DNA of 38,655 nt from Fusobacterium mortiferum ATCC 9817 (GTDB lineage Bacteria > Fusobacteriota > Fusobacteriia > Fusobacteriales > Fusobacteriaceae). A model generated the notes under the pieces. The model did not search any database and had not been told where the DNA came from. It was given only the letters and a program-made list of their open reading frames with translations. Shown here one piece after another: positions 15,769-31,959 of this stretch. Made by a program: the position numbers and the translations under genes. The DNA lies in the NCBI RefSeq assembly GCF_000158195.2, contig NZ_GL987991.1, positions 199,547 through 238,201 of the forward strand, given 5' to 3'. Within the stretch, counting starts at the first letter, position 1. Each line of letters begins with the position of its first letter.

Positions 15769-15879
15769 TTATTCTTCTTCTATTTTTTCTATTTTGGGTA
15801 TATCAACTTTAACTATCGGAACTTCAACTTCTATTTTAGGTACTTCAACATCAATTTTTGGAACTATGATTTTTTCCAT
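15769..15879 (-). CDS. 36-aa repetitive PKIEVE peptide
   Basis: A very short frame made of near repeats (V/I)PKI(D/E)VEVP: MEKIIVPKIDVEVPKIEVEV, then PIVKVDIPKIEKIEEE. It starts two bases after the stop of the Rha-like gene with no separate ribosome site, so translation would be coupled. A second, related peptide is encoded at 21257-21394. The alternating hydrophobic/charged pattern could form a beta strand or bind a partner; function unknown. Confidence 0.6.
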   Translation of the reverse strand: MEKIIVPKIDVEVPKIEVEVPIVKVDIPKIEKIEEE

Positions 15880-15881
15880 AA

Positions 15882-16553
15882 TTATATCATCTGTAATTGA
15901 GTATTCTCTATTCTTAGTTGATATGGTTCTATCCAATTAAAAATATATGGCATAACTGTTAGGTAATCTTTATATTTTAGTTCCACTAGACTATCAATAC
16001 CAAATCTTGATTGAATATCCTTTACTAATTCTTTCTTTAATCTTAGTTTGAAAGTTCTATTTGATATACCTGTACTTTTCATTCTTCTAAGAACTGTTTC
16101 AGTAATCTGTTCTTTTACAACTTCAACTTGGCTCCACGTCATAGGTATTTGATTTAACTCATTCTCTAGCTTTTGAATTTTAGTAAGTAACTCTCTATTC
16201 TCAATAAACTCTTGATGATAAATTAATTTTTCCATCTCTTCAAATCTATTGATATAAGCAACATTCAAATCAAAAGCTTTCTCTACTGCTGAACTATATC
16301 CTCCTATCAGTTGAGCTATTCCTTTTTTAGTGATTAGATAGTTTCTATAAGTTCTAAAATTTCCATTTACTTTATAATAACTTGGAATATAGAACTCTTT
16401 TATGAGGGCGGAACTTTCCGCTTTCGTGAATTTTCCTACATAATTATCAATTTTCTCTAATAAATCCTTATGTAATACTCCTAATTCTTCTGCTACTCTG
16501 TTACTTGTTGTAACCAAGATACCATCTACTTTTTCAACCACTACATTAAACAT
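15882..16553 (-). CDS. Rha-family phage regulator / antirepressor-type protein
   Basis: 223 residues. The N-terminal Phage_pRha-type domain (about 1-110) has VDGILVTTSNRVAEELGVLH then KDLLEKIDNYVG, and YLITKKGIAQLIGGYSS. The C-terminal part (about 130-223) resembles ORF6C-like modules attached to phage antirepressors. AGGAGGATAT precedes the ATG. Upstream on the same strand are the AbrB-like gene and a convergent small RNA, so this is placed where ant stands in phage P22 immI. Rha/Ant proteins affect lysogeny by countering repressors; the target here is unknown. Confidence 0.78.
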   Translation of the reverse strand: MFNVVVEKVDGILVTTSNRVAEELGVLHKDLLEKIDNYVGKFTKAESSALIKEFYIPSYYKVNGNFRTYRNYLITKKGIAQLIGGYSSAVEKAFDLNVAYINRFEEMEKLIYHQEFIENRELLTKIQKLENELNQIPMTWSQVEVVKEQITETVLRRMKSTGISNRTFKLRLKKELVKDIQSRFGIDSLVELKYKDYLTVMPYIFNWIEPYQLRIENTQLQMI

Positions 16554-16577
16554 TTTAATATATCCTCCTAAAAACGT

Positions 16578-16606
16578 TTGATTTTATGGAGTTAATGCAG
16601 TATAAT
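16578..16606 (+). promoter_or_regulatory. Promoter of antisense RNA 1
   Basis: TTGATT (16578-16583), 17-base spacer, TATAAT (16601-16606), reading against the Rha/AbrB transcript. The -35 box lies directly after the Rha ribosome binding site. Confidence 0.75.
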
Positions 16607-16612
16607 ATGATT

Positions 16613-16678
16613 GGCTAGGTCGTATTATACGGCTAACTCCTGTTGGAACTCGTAAGGGAACTGACAGGAGATTTTTTT
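16613..16678 (+). ncRNA. Antisense RNA 1 (sar-like, about 66 nt)
   Basis: Start inferred seven bases after the -10 box; end at the terminator CTCCTGT...ACAGGAG followed by seven T (16637-16678), which ends at the stop codon of the AbrB-like gene on the other strand. The RNA is fully complementary to the AbrB-Rha intercistronic leader. In the mRNA sense, GGAGTTA and GTATAATA pair with TATTATAC and TAACTCC to make a hairpin that spans the RNA promoter. Size and position match P22 sar RNA. Transcript not demonstrated. Confidence 0.65.
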
Positions 16679-16853
16679 ATTTCTTTTTTCTTATAATGAT
16701 TTCTTGAGTATCCTCATTTACTTCGATTTCTATTTCTCTTTCTTCTTGGTTAACTCCAATTTTATCAAGAAATGTTTTTGGGATATTAAGTTTTGGAGAA
16801 ATACTACCAGAACCACTTTTAAAGAAAGAAACTTTTAAAATCCTTTTTTCCAT
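16677..16853 (-). CDS. AbrB/MazE-like mini-repressor 1
   Basis: 58 residues (MEKRILKVSFFKSGSGSISP, then KLNIPKTFLDKIGV), the swapped-hairpin AbrB/MazE DNA-binding pattern: a strand, S/G turn, and a P-K-x-hydrophobic-x-x-hydrophobic-G helix. AAAGGAG precedes the ATG. It is paralogous to the 57-residue protein at 30582. The promoter is spanned by a 10-bp inverted repeat that is its likely operator, so autorepression is expected. No MazF-like toxin is adjacent; the downstream partner is the Rha-type gene. Confidence 0.75.
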   Translation of the reverse strand: MEKRILKVSFFKSGSGSISPKLNIPKTFLDKIGVNQEEREIEIEVNEDTQEIIIRKKK

Positions 16854-17964: not shown

Positions 17965-18966
17965 TTATTCCTCCATCTTTCTATCTATCTCTTTATCTAT
18001 CCATTCTTGAATAGTTGCTACATCTGTTTTTGTCATATTATCAAAATCTATCTTTAATTCTTTTTTTACTTCTTTTTTCAAATCTATCTTGAGTATATCT
18101 GAATTTCTAAGAAGTTCTAGTCTATCTTCATCAGTTGCTGGAATATCAGTTATAACTTCAATATCCTCTCCTGTGTTATCTGCAAATTGTCCTATTATAG
18201 TTCCATCATCTTCTACTTCTTTAACTACTAGTCCATCTGTTTGAAGAGCTTTTTGAACTTCAACAGATAAAGCTCCAAATTTACTAAGATTTAATTTCAA
18301 TACTGTTTTCAATGCCATAGCATCAAAATTTTTACTCCAGTTAGACATTGTATATCCTTTTCTTAAATCATATTGATATGACTGACTATACTTTTCAGCA
18401 TGATTTTTTACCTGGCCAACTGTCATAAAAAGAGTGTTTCTAAAACCATTGTTGAACTCTATATAAGAAGCATACCCAACTGTCTTAGCTTCTAATCTTT
18501 TATCTAAGTCTTCTATAAATTTAAGATTTAATTCTCCAGTAAGAATGTTATATCCTTGGATTTCTCCTTCTTTTATTTCTATTGCATTGATATATTTATA
18601 CTCTCCACTTCTAAGGGCTAACTGTATATACCCTTTATATCCCATTTGAAATTGTGCAAGTGTTCCTTTGTTTTTATCATTGTATGGTACTATATATGCA
18701 AATCCTAAATTTTTCTCTATTGGAAGATTTAGAACTGCCGAAGCAATAGCAGCATTTATAATACTTTGAGGGTCTGCCTGTTGTAGTTGAGGTGTACCCT
18801 CAACTACTTGTATTATTGCCATCATAAAGTGGCCAGCTCTTTCTCCTAATAAAGATTTAAGTTGTTTTTTTATAGCTTGAGTTGCCAACATACTTTTTAA
18901 AGCTGGAACTCCTACATTACTTTGAATATCATCTTTTGGTACTAAATCATTTTTCACTTTTGCCAT
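17965..18966 (-). CDS. recT: RecT-family single-strand annealing protein
   Basis: 333 residues. Motifs of the RecT/Redbeta family: ALKSMLATQAIKKQLKSLLG, DPQSIINAAIASAVLNLPIE, FQMGYKGYIQLALRSGEYK and the acidic C-terminus (about 265-333). It anneals complementary strands during phage replication and recombination, working with the YqaJ-type exonuclease encoded three genes upstream on the same transcript. Starts with ATG overlapping the previous gene's stop. Confidence 0.93.
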   Translation of the reverse strand: MAKVKNDLVPKDDIQSNVGVPALKSMLATQAIKKQLKSLLGERAGHFMMAIIQVVEGTPQLQQADPQSIINAAIASAVLNLPIEKNLGFAYIVPYNDKNKGTLAQFQMGYKGYIQLALRSGEYKYINAIEIKEGEIQGYNILTGELNLKFIEDLDKRLEAKTVGYASYIEFNNGFRNTLFMTVGQVKNHAEKYSQSYQYDLRKGYTMSNWSKNFDAMALKTVLKLNLSKFGALSVEVQKALQTDGLVVKEVEDDGTIIGQFADNTGEDIEVITDIPATDEDRLELLRNSDILKIDLKKEVKKELKIDFDNMTKTDVATIQEWIDKEIDRKMEE

Positions 18967-19403: not shown

Positions 19404-19642
19404 TAAATCACCTCAAAATGATATATGGTATTTTCAGTTGCTATTGAGATAAGTTCTTCAACTATTTCAACACTTTTTATTTTAGAAGTTGATAGAGTTT
19501 CATTTGAATTTACTTTTTCAAATATTCCTCTTTCTCCTATTACAGCTCTAGTTATTTTAAAAACTTTTCCAACTTGCATTCTAGCTGGTGTTACGTAATT
19601 TGATTTCAATTCTATAACTTGTTCCAATTTTGCTGTTGTCAT
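19403..19642 (-). CDS. Small prophage protein (79 aa)
   Basis: Mostly beta-strand prediction: VIELKSNYVTPARMQVGKVF, KITRAVIGERGIFEKV, IATENTIYHFEVI. AGAGGTGG precedes the ATG, which overlaps the exonuclease stop codon by one base. Unknown function, within the recombination operon. Confidence 0.65.
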   Translation of the reverse strand: MTTAKLEQVIELKSNYVTPARMQVGKVFKITRAVIGERGIFEKVNSNETLSTSKIKSVEIVEELISIATENTIYHFEVI

Positions 19643-20739
19643 TATGCCACCTCTTTAATTATTTTATTTTCAGGAAGTTCTTTTAGATTAAATCTCTTAG
19701 CACCTCTTGAATCTACTTTCCAAGTCGCTAAGTATCTTCCATTAATTAATAAGCTTTCTGTTTCTAGTTCTATCATTTTCTTTTGAATTTTCGCTTTTGT
19801 TAAATCTAAGTCAGTATCTATATCTTTAATTTCTTTAGATATTAGCTTTTTAGTATCATTCATTGAGAAATAAGCTTCCATTTCTTTATCTTCTATTTTT
19901 ATTAATGGGATTTTTTCATACTTATTCTCAAATCCTTGAAACTCTTGCTTTAGGAACTCACATTCAGCTGGACAACCATTTAGTTCAGGTTCTATATTTT
20001 CATCAAGACACTTTTGAAATCTCTTAGTAAGTTCATAAGCTAAAGATATTAATTTATCATTTCTTTCTATCTCATAAACTCGAGTAAATCTATTATCTAC
20101 AAATCCTACTAGGAATCCTTTATTTTTTCCTAATACTGCAAGTTGTTGCTGGACTTGAGCAAAATATTTATTAGGAACTTCCTCTCTTTCCCATTCATAT
20201 GAAGTGAAACTATTACCTGTCTTTAGTTCCACTGGGAACCATTCTCCATCAATCTTTACCCAACTATCAGGAGTACAACTCCATAATGGATATATTGGAT
20301 TTCCTACTACTTGATTTCCTTTTCTAGTTGCTTCAACCTTTAGACCAAACTCTTTTTCAAAGAGTACTGGAAGATGAGCAATTATAAAATCCTCTGCATA
20401 GTGTCCAAACTCCATAGCTATTTGAGAGTTAAAGGATATATCACGACTGTATATTCCTTTTCTCTCTGCCCACATCAAATATGGAGAAGTATATCTATCT
20501 GGTTGGTCTATTAGCTTTTGTCTAAAAGCATTATCTACAACTAAGATTGATGTGTCTGTTGCCCCTATTCTTCTATGATTTAACCATTCTCCATCGCCAC
20601 TACATTCTCCAGCAAATAATACTTCACTAGTATGTAATGTATTCTCTTCTATAAATTTTTCTAATTCTGCTTTTCTCATTTTGCTATATCCACTAAGTCC
20701 CATTGACTTAGCTTTTTCTTTTAACTCTTTTACAGTCAT
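19642..20739 (-). CDS. YqaJ-type viral recombinase exonuclease with SAP/HeH-like N-terminus
   Basis: 365 residues from ATG 20739 (GAGGTGG upstream; the frame opens three codons earlier at GTG). Residues 1-35 (VKELKEKAKSMGLSGYSKMR, KAELEKFIEENT) look like a SAP/HeH DNA-binding helix pair. The nuclease (about 50-270) has the lambda-exonuclease-type residues GATDTS, MEFGHYAEDF, WSCTPDSW, PVELKTG and YFAQVQQQLAVLG. It would resect double-strand ends 5'-3' and load RecT. The C-terminal third is helical. Confidence 0.88.
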   Translation of the reverse strand: MTVKELKEKAKSMGLSGYSKMRKAELEKFIEENTLHTSEVLFAGECSGDGEWLNHRRIGATDTSILVVDNAFRQKLIDQPDRYTSPYLMWAERKGIYSRDISFNSQIAMEFGHYAEDFIIAHLPVLFEKEFGLKVEATRKGNQVVGNPIYPLWSCTPDSWVKIDGEWFPVELKTGNSFTSYEWEREEVPNKYFAQVQQQLAVLGKNKGFLVGFVDNRFTRVYEIERNDKLISLAYELTKRFQKCLDENIEPELNGCPAECEFLKQEFQGFENKYEKIPLIKIEDKEMEAYFSMNDTKKLISKEIKDIDTDLDLTKAKIQKKMIELETESLLINGRYLATWKVDSRGAKRFNLKELPENKIIKEVA

Positions 20740-20766
20740 CAAGACCACCTCTTTTTAAGTTTTAGA

Positions 20767-20889: not shown

Positions 20890-21153
20890 TTAACAAGCTA
20901 TTTGTTCCCATTTTTTTGCTATTTCATTCTCTTCTTTATATTCTTTACTATGACTTTTTTTCTCTTCTTCAATCCATCTTGTAATAGTTCTTATTGCTTT
21001 GTCTAAAACCTCTTCCCAAGTATTAGCTTGGTATCTATCTCCCATTACATATACTGTTGGTTTTCCCTCTTCAACTGTTAAATTAATATCTTCATCAGAA
21101 TTTTCATTGTATTTTCTTGATAAAAATATTAAGTTTGTTATTTTAGATTCCAT
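20890..21153 (-). CDS. Small acidic prophage protein (87 aa)
   Basis: N-terminal strands (SKITNLIFLSRKYNENSDED, INLTVEEGKPTVYVMGDRY) followed by a helix (EEVLDKAIRTITRWIEEEKK). The ATG lies inside the preceding 40-aa gene (16-base overlap). No family recognised. Confidence 0.65.
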   Translation of the reverse strand: MESKITNLIFLSRKYNENSDEDINLTVEEGKPTVYVMGDRYQANTWEEVLDKAIRTITRWIEEEKKSHSKEYKEENEIAKKWEQIAC

Positions 21154-21260
21154 TCTTCTTCCTCCTCATCTTCCTTATAACTTAAAGCAGTCTTGAATGT
21201 ATCAAACTCTTTTATAAATATTCCTATTATTCCAGCAAATATTAATAAATTAACTATCAT
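21138..21260 (-). CDS. Tiny membrane peptide with acidic tail (40 aa)
   Basis: One membrane helix (MIVNLLIFAGIIGIFI) followed by a cytoplasmic-type tail with five glutamates in a row. GGGAGGG precedes the ATG, and the start overlaps the previous stop as ATGA. Unknown; coupled translation within the leftward early operon. Confidence 0.6.
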   Translation of the reverse strand: MIVNLLIFAGIIGIFIKEFDTFKTALSYKEDEEEEEWNLK

Positions 21261-21394
21261 TTTCCCTCCCTAATATTTTCATTGATTTTCTTTTCTACTT
21301 CTTCCAACTCTTCTGTATCAACTTCAATCTTTGGTACTTCTACTTTGATTTCAGTAATCTCTACAATTATCTTTGGAATTTTTATCTTTTCCAT
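21257..21394 (-). CDS. 45-aa repetitive PKIEVE peptide, first gene of the leftward operon
   Basis: MEKIKIPKIIVEITEIKVEV followed by PKIEVDTEELEEVEKKI: the same (V/I)PKI-x-VE repeat as the 36-aa peptide at 15769-15879, here with a charged C-terminal helix. GGGAGGAATA precedes the ATG. It is the first reading frame after the leftward repressor-controlled promoter and its ribosome site is next to antisense RNA 3, so its expression is probably tightly set. Function unknown. Confidence 0.6.
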   Translation of the reverse strand: MEKIKIPKIIVEITEIKVEVPKIEVDTEELEEVEKKINENIREGK

Positions 21395-21404
21395 TATTCC
21401 TCCC

Positions 21405-21434
21405 TTGACAGTTCAAGGGGAAACTTGATATAAT
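21405..21434 (+). promoter_or_regulatory. Promoter of antisense RNA 3
   Basis: Consensus TTGACA (21405-21410), 18 bases, consensus TATAAT (21429-21434). It reads rightward, against the leftward early transcript. Confidence 0.75.
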
Positions 21435-21440
21435 TTTTAT

Positions 21441-21509
21441 ATGTGGATGTCAAGTTCCCACCAAGAACTTTTCATCTTGAGAGTAGTGTTGCAGCACTAC
21501 TCTTTTTTT
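21441..21509 (+). ncRNA. Antisense RNA 3 (about 69 nt) over the leftward leader
   Basis: Start inferred about seven bases after the -10 box; ends at the strong terminator GAGTAGTG...CACTACTC with seven T (21481-21509). No ORF inside. It is complementary to the 5' leader of the transcript from the leftward promoter at 21587-21617. In the leader sense, CCCTTGA-ACTG-TCAAGGG forms a hairpin that takes in the GGGAGG ribosome site, competing with a longer hairpin GGGAACTTGACAT / ATATCAAGTTTCCC. Expression not demonstrated. Confidence 0.6.
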
Positions 21510-21518
21510 ATTTTTCTT

Positions 21519-21535
21519 ACTCTGTTTTACAGAGT
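21519..21535. promoter_or_regulatory. Repressor operator, copy 1
   Basis: ACTCTGTTTTACAGAGT: perfect 6-bp arms with a five-base centre. Downstream of the leftward promoter start. Confidence 0.75.
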
Positions 21536-21586
21536 GAATTATTTAAAAATATAAAGATATCGCTTTTTTATGATATCTCTTAAAAT

Positions 21587-21617
21587 TATTATACTCTGTT
21601 TTTCAGAGAAAGTCAAT
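21587..21617 (-). promoter_or_regulatory. Leftward early promoter with operator in its spacer
   Basis: Minus strand TTGACT (21612-21617), 17-base spacer, TATAAT (21587-21592). Operator copy 2, ACTCTGTTTTTCAGAGA (21593-21609), fills the spacer, so repressor binding would block polymerase. It drives the operon from the 45-aa peptide through the exonuclease and recT. Confidence 0.8.
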
Positions 21618-21657
21618 AAATTTATTAAAAATTATCGTATTTTTATATAAAATAGAG

Positions 21658-21680
21658 TATAATACTCTTATAAACAGAGT
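21658..21680 (+). promoter_or_regulatory. Repressor-gene promoter -10 box and operator copy 3
   Basis: TATAAT at 21658-21663 followed at once by ACTCTTATAAACAGAGT (21664-21680), an imperfect copy of the operator. No clear -35 box. Suggests autoregulation of the XRE repressor. Confidence 0.6.
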
Positions 21681-21696
21681 GAAAGGAGCAATTAAA

Positions 21697-22137
21697 ATGG
21701 AAAATTTTGCTTTATTAATAAAAAAATTCAGAGAGGATAGAGGACTTTCACAAAAACAATTAGCAGAAAAAGCTGGAATAGGTTCTGGAACTATTGGAGA
21801 TATTGAAAGAGGAGATAGAAAAGGAAAAATTTCTACATTAGATAAAATTTCTAAAGCTCTGAATTTAACTAAAGAAGAAAGAGATAGATTAGATAATGCT
21901 TTTATGGGAAGAAATATTACTTCTTCTTCAATTGACCCTAGAGTTGAAATCTTAAATAAAAAAGAAAAAAATCAATATGAAAAAACTATGAATGAAGCAG
22001 CTCTGTTTTTTAATGATGAAAACATTTCAGAAGAAGATAAACAAAAATTATTATTAGCTATGAATGAAATGTTTTTTATGAGTAAACAAATAAATAAAGA
22101 GAAATATGCCAAAAAGTCTGACAAAGATAAAAAGTAG
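21697..22137 (+). CDS. XRE-family phage repressor (CI-like)
   Basis: 146 residues from ATG 21697 (AAAGGAG upstream; an in-frame GTG six codons earlier is less likely). Helix-turn-helix at about 6-58: LIKKFREDRGLSQKQLAEKA, then GIGSGTIGDIERGDRKGK. The C-terminal half is helical and has no LexA-type Ser/Lys protease, so induction probably depends on the ImmA-type protease encoded next, as for ImmR of ICEBs1. Operators ACTCTG-N5-CAGAGT on both sides of the intergenic region are its likely sites. Confidence 0.85.
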   Translation: MENFALLIKKFREDRGLSQKQLAEKAGIGSGTIGDIERGDRKGKISTLDKISKALNLTKEERDRLDNAFMGRNITSSSIDPRVEILNKKEKNQYEKTMNEAALFFNDENISEEDKQKLLLAMNEMFFMSKQINKEKYAKKSDKDKK

Positions 22138-22139
22138 TG

Positions 22140-22571
22140 ATGAGTATGGACATAAGAAGAAGGGTTGTAAATTTAGAAAAAAAATATGGGACTAGAAATC
22201 CGTATAAGTTATGCAAAATAATGAAAATAAATATTTTGTATATGGATTTAGGGAATATAAAGGGGATTTATAAAAAAGTAATTACTAATAAATTTATAGT
22301 AATTAATGAAAATTTAGATAAGTTTTGTCAAAAAGTTGTATTATCTCATGAACTTGGACATGCTATATTACATCATTCTAAAGAGATACAAGCATTAAAA
22401 GATTATGACTTATTTCCACAATTTAGTAACCAGATAGAAGTAGAAGCTAATACATTTGCTGCTGAATTATTGATAGATGATGATTTTGACAATGATGAGT
22501 ACATAGAAAATCCTAGTATTGATATTAGAATATTAGAGCAATTAAAAGAATTAAAATATAGAAAAAAATAA
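22140..22571 (+). CDS. ImmA/IrrE-family metallopeptidase
   Basis: 143 residues from ATG 22140 (GTG at 22137 and ATG at 22146 are alternatives; no strong ribosome site, so coupling to the repressor gene is likely). Zinc motif HELGHAILHH (H70, E71, H74) and a downstream EVEANTFAAELL helix giving the third ligand. ImmA-type enzymes cleave the XRE repressor encoded beside them to trigger induction. One base to three bases from the repressor stop. Confidence 0.85.
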   Translation: MSMDIRRRVVNLEKKYGTRNPYKLCKIMKINILYMDLGNIKGIYKKVITNKFIVINENLDKFCQKVVLSHELGHAILHHSKEIQALKDYDLFPQFSNQIEVEANTFAAELLIDDDFDNDEYIENPSIDIRILEQLKELKYRKK

Positions 22572-23061: not shown

Positions 23062-23090
23062 TTGACTTACTCTGATAATCAGAGTATAAT
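23062..23090 (+). promoter_or_regulatory. Repressor-controlled promoter of the small Cro-like gene
   Basis: TTGACT (23062-23067), 17 bases, TATAAT (23085-23090). The spacer holds operator copy 4, ACTCTGATAATCAGAGT (23069-23085), the same layout as the leftward promoter. Confidence 0.8.
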
Positions 23091-23114
23091 ATAAAAAAGT
23101 TTTGGAGGTTAAAA

Positions 23115-23342
23115 TTGAATATTATTAATCAAGAAGAAGATATTTCTTTAAAAATTTCTTCTAAATTAGAATATTTAATGAAAATTAATAAAGTAAAAGC
23201 AAAAGACTTATCAGATTTTATTGGTATTACTGAGGTTAATTTTTCAAGAATCAGAAATCGTTTAAAAGAAGGAAAATTTCCAACTTTTACATTCATAGCT
23301 GGTGTTTCTAAATATTTTGATACAAATTTTTTTGAAAAATAA
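23115..23342 (+). CDS. Small XRE/Cro-like DNA-binding protein
   Basis: 75 residues, TTG start with TTGGAGG upstream. Helix-turn-helix at about 22-60: INKVKAKDLSDFIGITEVNF, SRIRNRLKEGKF. It is preceded and followed by copies of the same operator as the main repressor, so it may act as a Cro-type antagonist or be another regulated member of the immunity circuit. Confidence 0.72.
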   Translation: MNIINQEEDISLKISSKLEYLMKINKVKAKDLSDFIGITEVNFSRIRNRLKEGKFPTFTFIAGVSKYFDTNFFEK

Positions 23343-23359
23343 ACTCTGTAATTCAGAGT
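23343..23359. promoter_or_regulatory. Repressor operator, copy 5
   Basis: ACTCTGTAATTCAGAGT, perfect 6-bp arms, directly after the Cro-like stop codon. No clear promoter overlaps it. Confidence 0.7.
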
Positions 23360-25866: not shown

Positions 25867-25952
25867 GGAGATATTGCCTAATGGTATGGCGGTAGATTGC
25901 TAATCTACCGAGTTAATAGTTCTTATGGGTTCGAGTCCCATTATCTTCGCCA
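25867..25952 (+). tRNA. tRNA-Ser(GCU), class II
   Basis: Acceptor GGAGATA pairs with TATCTTC (one G-T), discriminator G and an encoded CCA. D arm GCC/GGC with AATGGTA loop; anticodon arm GTAGA-TTGCTAA-TCTAC, anticodon GCT; long variable arm; T arm ATGGG-TTCGAGT-CCCAT. 86 nt. It reads AGC/AGT codons. Phage-carried tRNAs are common; here it lies between lysogenic genes and the replication module. Confidence 0.88.
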
Positions 25953-25956
25953 TTAT

Positions 25957-26026
25957 GGGAATGTAGTTTAATGGAAAAACTTAAAAACTAAGGTTATAAA
26001 ATGTTGGTTCAAGTCCAGCCGTTCCC
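25957..26026 (+). pseudogene. Degenerate tRNA-like gene (glycine-type arms)
   Basis: Four bases after the tRNA-Ser. Acceptor GGGAATG pairs with CGTTCCC (one G-T), D arm GTTTAATGGAAAAAC, T arm GTTGG-TTCAAGT-CCAGC are all good and resemble tRNA-Gly. The anticodon region does not form a 5-bp stem with a seven-base loop carrying U33, and no CCA is encoded. 70 nt. Probably a decayed tRNA, or an RNA retained for its tRNA-like ends. Confidence 0.5.
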
Positions 26027-26083
26027 TTTTCATAAAACTTTCCCCCTGAATACAGTTGGCAGAGCTGTAAAACTGCCATAAAT

Positions 26084-26115: not shown

Positions 26116-26223
26116 TTATCTGTACTTTCTCACTAACCATACAATAATGAGAATGAGTAATCCACCTAGAAGAATTACTCCACCATCAAGATTGATAGTT
26201 AGATTTTGAATTGTTACAGTCAT
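26116..26223 (-). CDS. Small membrane peptide, type I toxin-like (35 aa)
   Basis: MTVTIQNLTINLDGGVILLG then GLLILIIVWLVRKYR: a polar N-terminus, one membrane helix and a positively charged end, the layout of TxpA/Fst/holin-like type I toxins. GGAGGTACAG precedes the ATG. The mRNA is predicted to start near 26354 and end at 26084, leaving a leader of about 130 nt for a 35-codon gene, another feature of type I toxins. An antisense RNA partner is not convincingly visible. It could also be a small holin-like or signalling peptide. Confidence 0.6.
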   Translation of the reverse strand: MTVTIQNLTINLDGGVILLGGLLILIIVWLVRKYR

Positions 26224-26234
26224 TTCTGTACCTC

Positions 26235-26333
26235 CTTGATAAATTGTTTGTCTGCCTTGTTCAAGGGCAGAATAAAAGCTCTAATAAAAATATTAGAGCC
26301 TCCATTCTGAACTTAAACAAACAACTTATCAAG
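26235..26333 (-). other. Folded leader of the toxin-like mRNA
   Basis: CTTGATAAATTGTTTGT (26235-26251) and ACAAACAACTTATCAAG (26317-26333) pair over 17 positions with one mismatch. The left arm lies directly against the ribosome site AGGAGG, so the fold could hide it. Inside are further hairpins GCTCTAATA/TATTAGAGC and CTGCC/GGCAG; a 5'-end hairpin GTACC/GGTAC follows at 26333-26357. Confidence 0.7.
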
Positions 26334-30518: not shown

Positions 30519-30563
30519 TTGACAGTCAGTCACTAACGTGATATTATAAAAATATGTTAGTGA
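30519..30563 (+). promoter_or_regulatory. Promoter and inverted-repeat operator of mini-repressor 2
   Basis: TTGACA (30519-30524), 17 bases, TATTAT (30542-30547). TCACTAAC (30530-30537) and GTTAGTGA (30556-30563) flank the -10 box, the same geometry as at 16867-16909 but with a different arm sequence. The stretch ATATCTTGAC before the arms is identical in both promoters. Confidence 0.8.
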
Positions 30564-30581
30564 TTAACGAGGAGGAATACT

Positions 30582-30755
30582 GTGGAAAAGAGGACAGCAA
30601 ATGTATCTTTTTCTAAAAGCGGTAATGGGATAGGAGCCAGAATAATATTATCTGTTCCCCTTTTAAAAAAGCTTGGAATAACTCAAGAGAACAGAGAAGT
30701 TGAAGTTATTTATGATGAAGAAAAGCAAACCATTACAATAAAGAAAAAGATATAA
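30582..30755 (+). CDS. AbrB/MazE-like mini-repressor 2
   Basis: 57 residues, GTG start eight bases after GAGGAGG. MEKRTANVSFSKSGNGIGAR, then SVPLLKKLGITQENREVEVI and a basic end ITIKKKI. Paralog of the protein at 16677-16853: shared MEKR, VSF-KSG, K-GI-QE-REVEV. Expected to bind its own inverted repeat. The downstream genes are a 96-aa protein and a Rha/Ant-type regulator, separated by a convergent antisense RNA. Confidence 0.75.
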   Translation: MEKRTANVSFSKSGNGIGARIILSVPLLKKLGITQENREVEVIYDEEKQTITIKKKI

Positions 30756-30824
30756 AAAAATCCCCTTAACAATCCACTAACATGAACTGATAAGGGGTTT
30801 TTGTAGTACAATAAGTACCGTAGC
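30754..30824 (-). ncRNA. Antisense RNA 2 (sar-like, about 71 nt)
   Basis: Reads against the cassette. Ends at CCCCTTA...TAAGGGG followed by seven T on the minus strand, precisely at the mini-repressor stop codon. The same hairpin has five T on the plus strand and could partly terminate the mRNA. In the mRNA sense, GTAGTACAAT pairs with ATTGTACTAC (30802-30811 and 30831-30840). Homologous to antisense RNA 1 in promoter and 5' region but with a different loop. Not experimentally shown. Confidence 0.65.
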
Positions 30825-30830
30825 AAGTAT

Positions 30831-30859
30831 ATTGTACTACATTAACTCCAAAAATACAA
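30831..30859 (-). promoter_or_regulatory. Promoter of antisense RNA 2
   Basis: Minus strand TTGTAT (30854-30859), 17 bases, TACAAT (30831-30836). Aligns base for base with the promoter of antisense RNA 1, sharing GGAGTTAATG in the spacer; both boxes are weaker. Confidence 0.6.
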
Positions 30860-30878
30860 GTTTTTAGGAGGAAAAAAT

Positions 30879-31169
30879 ATGCTAAGTGAACAATCAAGAG
30901 GAGTAATTGAGTTTATTGATGAGTGTAGAGCTCAAGGTATGATAAAAGATGAATTATACCTAAAAGAAGAAGAGATGTGGAGAACTTTATCAGATTTAGA
31001 AGTAGTAATGAAAAGAAGTCCAGAGGATAGAGCACTATACTGGAAACTTGAAACATTAATATCTGAAGCTATCGTTCTTGTAAAAGATACTTACTTTGAG
31101 TATGGAGAAAACTTTGAAAGCACTCAAATGAATAAACTCATAGCAAAGGTAAATAAGGAGGCAATGTAG
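30879..31169 (+). CDS. Acidic helical protein (96 aa) in cassette 2
   Basis: TTTAGGAGG precedes the ATG. Helical: GVIEFIDECRAQGMIKDELY, EEMWRTLSDLEVVMKRSPED, RALYWKLETLISEAIVLVKD. One base before the Rha/Ant-type gene, so cotranslated with it. No counterpart in cassette 1. Function unknown. Confidence 0.65.
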   Translation: MLSEQSRGVIEFIDECRAQGMIKDELYLKEEEMWRTLSDLEVVMKRSPEDRALYWKLETLISEAIVLVKDTYFEYGENFESTQMNKLIAKVNKEAM

Positions 31170-31170
31170 T

Positions 31171-31959
31171 ATGAATGATTTGATGGTAAGAGAGAAAAAA
31201 GAAGAAATAACAAGTCTTGAACTTGTAGAACAGATAAATGTATTTAGAAAACAAGAAGGAAAGAAAACAGAATTACAACATTTTAATTTGTTGGCTGTAA
31301 TCCGTGATGAATTTGAAGAAGAAATTAACGCCCTAAAAATTCAAGCCGTTGAATATAGAGATAAAAAGGGAGAATTAAGACCTATGTATATATTAACTCT
31401 TAACCAAGCTAAACAAGTTTTAATGAGAGAAAGTAAATTTGTAAGAAAAGCAGTTATACACTATATAGAAGAATTAGAAAAACAACTTGGAACAATAGTT
31501 AGTTATGAAGACAGATTAAAACTAGGCTTATTTTCAAAAGACCCTGAAGTTGTAGCTCGTTCTCATAAAGCTTTACTAGAATTAGAGTTAAAACCTTTAA
31601 AAGAAGAAATTGAGAAAAAGACAAAAGAAATAGAGTATAAAGAAGATGTAATTATTGGCTTAACTGATAAAATTGATTTAATGGATATGAGACAAATTTT
31701 AAATACAGTAGTTAGATATAAAGGAGCTAACTATCAAGAAAGATGGAGATTATTGTATTTTGAATTTGAAAAGAAATATCATCTTGATTTGAAAAGAAGA
31801 ATAAATAGTTACAATAAAAATCATAAACCCAAACTGAAAAATAAGTTAGATTATATTGATATAGAAATGAAAAAACTTCCTCAATTATATGAAATAGCTT
31901 GTAAATTATTTGAAGGCGATATTAATCAAATAGTAGAAAATTATAAAAAAGTATGTTAA
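31171..31959 (+). CDS. Rha/Ant-type phage regulator 2
   Basis: 262 residues. The N-terminal domain (about 10-105) has the Rha pattern ITSLELVEQINVFRKQEGKK, YRDKKGELRPMYILTLNQAK, VLMRESKFVRKAVIHYIEEL. A coiled coil follows (about 125-170), then a basic C-terminal domain (175-262). It occupies the antirepressor position of cassette 2. Likely acts on a repressor or host regulator; target unknown. Confidence 0.75.
   Translation: MNDLMVREKKEEITSLELVEQINVFRKQEGKKTELQHFNLLAVIRDEFEEEINALKIQAVEYRDKKGELRPMYILTLNQAKQVLMRESKFVRKAVIHYIEELEKQLGTIVSYEDRLKLGLFSKDPEVVARSHKALLELELKPLKEEIEKKTKEIEYKEDVIIGLTDKIDLMDMRQILNTVVRYKGANYQERWRLLYFEFEKKYHLDLKRRINSYNKNHKPKLKNKLDYIDIEMKKLPQLYEIACKLFEGDINQIVENYKKVC

Follow-up and report, generated by a model that had tools for sequence, protein, structure and literature searches.

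Does the consensus promoter that faces the leader of a prophage's leftward early operon belong to a gene for a short antisense RNA, and what would such an RNA do to the operon? This question is raised by positions 21405-21510 (hereafter locus 3) of a 38,655-nucleotide stretch of Fusobacterium mortiferum ATCC 9817 DNA, referred to in full as the window. The promoter, TTGACA-18-TATAAT, lies between the main XRE repressor gene and the first gene of the operon, an acidic 45-aa ORF. The features of the region and of two related loci, cassettes 1 and 2, are listed in Table 1.

Table 1. Features of locus 3, the flanking operon and repressor side, and the two cassettes (positions in the window)
Feature	Position	Strand	Remarks
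Antisense RNA promoter TTGACA-18-TATAAT (sequence signal)	21405..21434	+	-35 and -10 invariant in 4 copies
Intrinsic terminator stem	21479..21504	+	then T-run (7 T) to 21510
Predicted antisense RNA, 69-70 nt	~21441..21510	+	5' hairpin 21445-21477, then terminator hairpin
SD-sequestering hairpin	21396..21424	-	holds SD GGGAGG; present in 4/4 copies
Leader segment A	21446..21476	-	three alternatives: a hairpin of its own, pairing with B, pairing with antisense RNA
Leader segment B	21407..21428	-	pairs with A (SD exposed) or forms SD hairpin (SD hidden)
Leader of leftward operon, antisense target	21395..21581	-	sequence and folds; start inferred 7 nt past -10
Leftward early promoter TTGACT-17-TATAAT	21616-21588	-	operator-like repeat between hexamers
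Operator-like repeat TACTCTGTTTTACAGAGTGAA	21518..21538		more copies at 21592-21612 and 21663-21683
45-aa acidic KI/VE-rich ORF, operon gene 1	21257..21394	-	
40-aa small protein, operon gene 2	21138..21260	-	hydrophobic N-terminus
87-aa ORF, operon gene 3	20890..21153	-	
YqaJ-type exonuclease	19642..20748	-	Pfam PF09588, 2.6e-11
RecT annealing protein	17965..18966	-	Pfam PF03837, 9.7e-41
Main XRE repressor	21697..22137	+	Pfam HTH_3, 3.5e-14
ImmA/IrrE-like metallopeptidase	22137..22571	+	Pfam PF06114, 1.3e-17
Cassette 1	15882-16853	-	AbrB-like 16677-16853 / antisense RNA / Rha 15882-16553
Cassette 2	30519-31959	+	AbrB-like 30582-30755 / antisense RNA / 96-aa and Rha-like genes

A promoter and terminator opposite the leftward leader

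The -35 box of the antisense promoter occupies 21405-21410 and the -10 box 21429-21434, with a TG immediately 5' of the latter. This promoter scored 12/12 against the consensus and ranked first among the 81 promoter-like sites in the 11 kb scanned. When promoters scoring 11/12 or better were paired with terminators lying 35-110 nt further downstream, two such units were found in the whole window, against 0.05 per dinucleotide-shuffled window; a promoter-terminator pair like that of locus 3 is far above chance. The only reading frames over the predicted RNA, one opening with ATG (21441-21554) and one with GTG (21443-21583), both cross the terminator, and the predicted RNA contains no plausible ORF. 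By its sequence signals alone, the locus has the properties of a cis-antisense sRNA gene, namely a promoter and a terminator of its own opposite the target strand. The original prediction had placed here a promoter, a terminator, an RNA of about 69 nt and an opposing promoter; all are present at those positions, and the sequence signals support its claim of an ORF-less, terminated plus-strand RNA opposite the leftward leader.

The leftward promoter holds the operator-like copy 21592-21612 between its -35 and -10 boxes. The antisense promoter is free of any overlapping operator-like repeat, and the antisense RNA is therefore probably constitutive. Within the window, no trans target of the RNA was found, the longest further exact complementarity being 12 nt. 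The 45-aa ORF had no match in Pfam, PHROG or NCBIfam, and scanning with Rfam at gathering thresholds yielded two tRNA matches only.

Distribution of the block and its surroundings

The block from the -35 box to the terminator was found in four prophages of two genera (the window's own genome twice, G005, and G076). The copy closest to that of the window (99% identity) belongs to L007, a further prophage of this genome (C5:74500-94000; same contig, at a distance of more than 110 kb); identity is 92% for L050, from another species of the genus, and 86% for L045, from a different genus of the same family. The window and L050 have the hairpin core AAGTTCCCACCAAGAACTTTTCATCTTGAGAGTAGTG in identical form. 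In all four copies the RNA directly precedes a short acidic ORF of the 45-aa type; this gene is closely followed by a small ORF of hydrophobic or membrane type, and exonuclease and RecT genes are located further on. The 45-aa protein itself was no longer detectable by tblastn at the L045 leader position, though the RNA block there is 86% identical.

On the far side of the terminator each copy has a sequence of its own, with four different XRE repressors and different flanks; L050 does retain the C-terminal part of a repressor and an ImmA-like gene that are related to their counterparts in the window, and L045 has two leftward genes between the antisense RNA and the repressor. The operators around the block have also been swapped between prophages. 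L007 and the window share operon genes 1 to 3 as well as the antisense RNA (99%), whereas the repressor, exonuclease and RecT of L007 are different. The exonuclease/RecT pairs fall into two types, 25-30% identical over their matched parts, one found in the window and L045 and the other in L007 and L050. The prophages L046-L049 and L051, which have the window's exonuclease type, carry different leaders and no homologue of the antisense RNA; because prophages that share the exonuclease and have no 45-aa-type leader also have no RNA, the RNA is not tied to the exonuclease.

A covariance model applied to 96 genomes of the order gave no convincing further copy; its hits of 27-31 bits in five genomes had no good promoter and resembled ordinary terminators or chance matches. 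Exact core searches of viral and genome contig collections revealed no homologue, the 18-mer matches lying in unrelated sequence where the flanking promoter and stem were absent, and blastn against phage and plasmid collections returned no match.

Two leader folds and the computed effect of antisense binding

The leader of the 45-aa gene was computed to be bistable. In fold I, the SD is hidden by the segment B hairpin; in fold II, segment A pairs with segment B and the SD is free. The computed energy gap between the two folds is 1-4 kcal/mol, and segment B coincides with the -35/spacer DNA of the antisense promoter. We computed the antisense-bound state by blocking the leader stretch that the antisense RNA covers. 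The results revealed that the computed cost of opening the SD increased from 2.6 to 10.7 kcal/mol in the window, from 2.8 to 10.7 in L007, from 2.3 to 9.7 in L050, and from 4.3 to 8.7 in L045. When the covered segment was shuffled (300 trials each), a difference of this size arose in none of the trials for the window, four for L050, and two for L045. No minus-strand terminator was found in the leader, and the SD hairpin (21424-21396) is followed by AATGG, without a U-run; the proposed switch would thus act on translation.

On the basis of these computations, we propose that locus 3 is a cis-antisense RNA gene whose product leaves the leader only in its SD-hidden fold, with translation of the 45-aa gene off, a proposal whose chances we regard as evenly balanced. 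The RNA of approximately 70 nt, probably made constitutively, would pair with the leader RNA of the leftward early operon, itself under repressor control. Because the exposed fold needs exactly the segment bound by the antisense RNA, occupation of segment A would abolish fold II, and fold I would remain, preventing translation of the 45-aa gene. Genes 1 and 2 overlap by ATGA and genes 2 and 3 by 16 nt, so genes 2 and 3 would follow gene 1 by coupling; exonuclease and RecT could decrease through loss of the untranslated mRNA. In a lysogen, the antisense RNA would constitute a second lock beneath the protein repressor, one that the strong leftward promoter would overtake once induction or infection had occurred.

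Fold I is the computed optimum without the RNA in three copies, and for L050 the outcome depends on the stretch folded. Since fold I is already optimal without the RNA, the leader could be largely shut down even unaided, and exposure of the SD could depend on something further: a ribosome, a protein or the kinetics of co-transcriptional folding, for example. Separate constraints conserve both segments (the RNA hairpin in the case of A, the SD and the promoter in that of B), and their conserved complementarity is consequently weak proof of the switch; in L045, 4 of the 23 A-B pairs are lost, and the sense strand is not favoured over its complement (19 versus 20 of 23).

An antisense RNA could also act without a leader switch, either because the duplex leads to RNase III cleavage and leader decay or because convergent transcription blocks the leftward polymerase, and we consider this a good but less likely alternative. 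The overlap of approximately 70 nt is fully complementary, the consensus promoter is located approximately 150 bp from the opposing leftward promoter, and lambda OOP RNA acts through RNase III (PMC5415839). Moreover, the SD lies outside the duplex, so that this route requires no special leader fold. Decay or interference nevertheless leaves unexplained why every one of the four copies has kept the SD hairpin and, in the computations, its connection to segment A, and interference alone does not account for the conserved sequence of the RNA hairpin.

Strand of the conserved product

With the plus-strand hairpins as the reference, standard pairs occupy 80 of 80 cells (20 pairs in four copies), compared with 75 of 80 for the complement strand; the difference stems from sites where a G-U pair of the plus strand corresponds to A-C on the minus strand. 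In the terminator, one pair is altered on both sides (A-U to G-C), and another is changed from U-A to U-G in L045. Length differences within the RNA block are confined to loops or single-stranded ends. The -35 box, -10 box and T-run are invariant in the four copies, and the promoter spacer measures 18, 18, 18 and 17. Across four copies, two of them nearly identical and only three differing appreciably, the pair pattern favours a real plus-strand RNA. The absence of a plausible ORF and the 80/80 pairs point to a conserved product that is RNA rather than protein, as for a cis-antisense sRNA.

It is unlikely, in view of this pattern, that the conserved element is the leftward leader RNA, serving as a sensor or anti-termination site, and that the plus-strand promoter match is incidental. 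The leader does fold well, its SD hairpin and A-B pairing are conserved, and a small hairpin changes from AUAUA/UAUAU to CUAUA/UAUAG in L050. A plus-strand product is favoured, however, by the perfect hexamers, invariant in four copies with a spacer changing only from 18 to 17, by the conserved T-run, and by the pair changes, being G-U on the plus strand and A-C on the other. Taken together with the swapped repressors, operators and exonuclease/RecT types, the plus-strand pair pattern indicates that the antisense RNA goes with the leader and the 45-aa gene rather than with the CI repressor.

In each of the four copies, the 45-aa-type gene is closely followed by a small ORF of hydrophobic or membrane type. 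This would suit a type I toxin-antitoxin-like arrangement, in which the RNA would serve as antitoxin to the gene 2 product, a small membrane protein, through the coupling of gene 2 to the 45-aa gene. We consider this improbable: the RNA lies opposite the leader of gene 1, which is not hydrophobic, the hydrophobic ORF being gene 2; the hydrophobic proteins are mutually unlike, except for the near-identical pair in the window's own genome; no toxin family match was found; and, unlike a free-standing toxin gene, the ORF is followed by recombination genes in an operon controlled by a phage repressor. A further reading, the counter-case named in the original prediction, is that TTGACA-18-TATAAT drives the main repressor through an attenuated leader. 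It does point at that gene, and the promoter of the repressor itself matches the consensus poorly (TTAAAA-17-TAAAAT, 21625-21653). This reading is very improbable, because a strong terminator follows TTGACA-18-TATAAT, two leftward genes intervene in L045, and the repressor differs in every copy whereas the RNA does not.

Relation to cassettes 1 and 2

Locus 3 had been described as the third use of one architecture, in which the main XRE repressor replaces the mini-repressor of the two cassettes. The cassette mini-repressors are AbrB/MazE-like proteins of 58 or 57 aa, both belonging to phrog_2329. Both cassettes correspond to the original description: beyond the mini-repressor gene lie an antisense promoter and terminator, followed by Rha-type genes. 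Homology links the antisense/SD elements of the two cassettes with one another and with elements of L007, L045, L049 and L051-L053, in which the helix sequences have changed; the locus 3 RNA has no evident sequence homology to either cassette. At all three loci the -35 box lies within an SD-sequestering hairpin, which explains its abutting the ribosome site of the first downstream gene, as had been noted; at locus 3, the SD of the 45-aa ORF (GGGAGG, 21399-21404) directly adjoins TTGACA. The common layout, a small antisense RNA with its -35 box abutting an SD hairpin, therefore holds for all three loci, but homology holds for cassettes 1 and 2 only, and the lack of evident homology indicates a shared layout rather than three copies. 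Replacement of the mini-repressor by the main XRE repressor within the unit is not supported by the four prophages, in which the RNA stays with the 45-aa-type gene and the repressor differs. The leader-switch computation gave a small effect in cassettes 1 and 2 (4.6 to 5.3 and 4.1 to 5.0 kcal/mol, respectively), and for this reason the switch proposal is not extended to them.

A second KI/VE-rich ORF resembling the 45-aa ORF is located immediately behind the Rha gene (15769-15876, minus strand). Additional ORFs of this kind, a family without annotation, were observed in the window's own genome (C5:89505-89600) and in L045 behind its rha.

Comparison with known antisense systems

In pT181 repC, antisense binding sequesters an anti-terminator, so that the RBS-bearing hairpin forms (PMC5435934). 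Locus 3 is similar in having two exclusive leader folds, an antisense RNA that takes the segment opposing the inhibitory hairpin, and an SD within that hairpin; by computation, its inhibitory fold is favoured on antisense binding. Its inhibitory hairpin is without the U-run of a terminator, so that only translation would be controlled, whereas pT181 exemplifies transcription control of a plasmid replication gene. Locus 3 precedes a phage early recombination operon, and no sequence relation between the two was found.

P22 sar, a phage antisense RNA of 68/69 nt at arc-ant, dampens a lytic-side gene (PMC2629481, PMC12197685), and its length is close to the approximately 70 nt predicted here. Unlike sar, the locus 3 RNA ends short of the SD, its target is a recombination operon instead of an antirepressor, and its unit includes no small repressor gene. 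The position of sar between small repressor and antirepressor genes is found in cassettes 1 and 2 and not at locus 3; the cassettes, with a small repressor, an antisense RNA and a Rha antirepressor, match the arc-sar-ant gene order better, and their order is also like that of pMV158 copG-RNAII-repB.

The pMV158 copG-RNAII-repB and R1 CopA/tap-repA systems resemble locus 3 in combining a protein repressor with an antisense RNA directed at the leader, and in R1, CopA acts on repA via tap by translational coupling, the coupling proposed for locus 3 (PMC5717011). Both systems control plasmid replication and have no sequence relation to locus 3. Lambda OOP and P1 c4 control early or immunity genes; OOP lies opposite the 3' end of cII, and c4 is processed from the transcript of its own target. 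Compared with these two phage antisense RNAs (PMC12197685), that of locus 3 has its own promoter and faces a 5' leader.

Phage cis-antisense RNAs (P22 sar, lambda OOP and P1 c4) and antisense-driven attenuators (pT181) are known. Against this background, a leader switch of this type placed ahead of phage recombination genes, and kept while the immunity regions around it are exchanged, appears to be a new variation; our literature search for a comparable leader switch gave no match, which is no proof of absence. Antisense control of phage genes is known from a few model phages. If the proposal is correct, locus 3 would represent a conserved case beyond model phages that targets a recombination operon, and its leader would offer, at the level of translation, a simple and testable equivalent of the pT181 attenuator.

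L007 and the window prophage reside in one genome, where cross-regulation at the RNA level is possible. Since the RNA is nearly identical in these two prophages with different repressors, each RNA could silence the leader of the other, which raises the question of whether the RNA, besides the repressor protein, decides mutual phage silencing. We tentatively suggest a wider reading, in which an antisense-thrown bistable translational switch would form a module that moves between phages independently of the repressor and recombination genes, and two co-resident prophages with different repressors would share an RNA immunity layer directed against early recombination genes.

Neighbouring elements of the prophage

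A 75-aa mini-XRE gene is located at 23062-23342 (plus strand); its promoter holds an operator-like palindrome of the main repressor between the -35 and -10 boxes, and another operator-like palindrome (23343-23359) lies directly behind the gene. The minus strand at 26116-26223 encodes a 35-aa hydrophobic peptide, MTVTIQNLTINLDGGVILLGGLLILIIVWLVRKYR, with a strong promoter (26389-26361) and a possible leader terminator (hairpin near 26271). Small GG-motif peptides resembling it were observed in L007, L049 and L051 near repressor or recombination genes, and the family may comprise membrane toxins or phage exclusion peptides. Two neighbouring tRNA genes (Ser-GCT and Leu-TAA; 25867-26027, plus strand) lie within the prophage between short ORFs.
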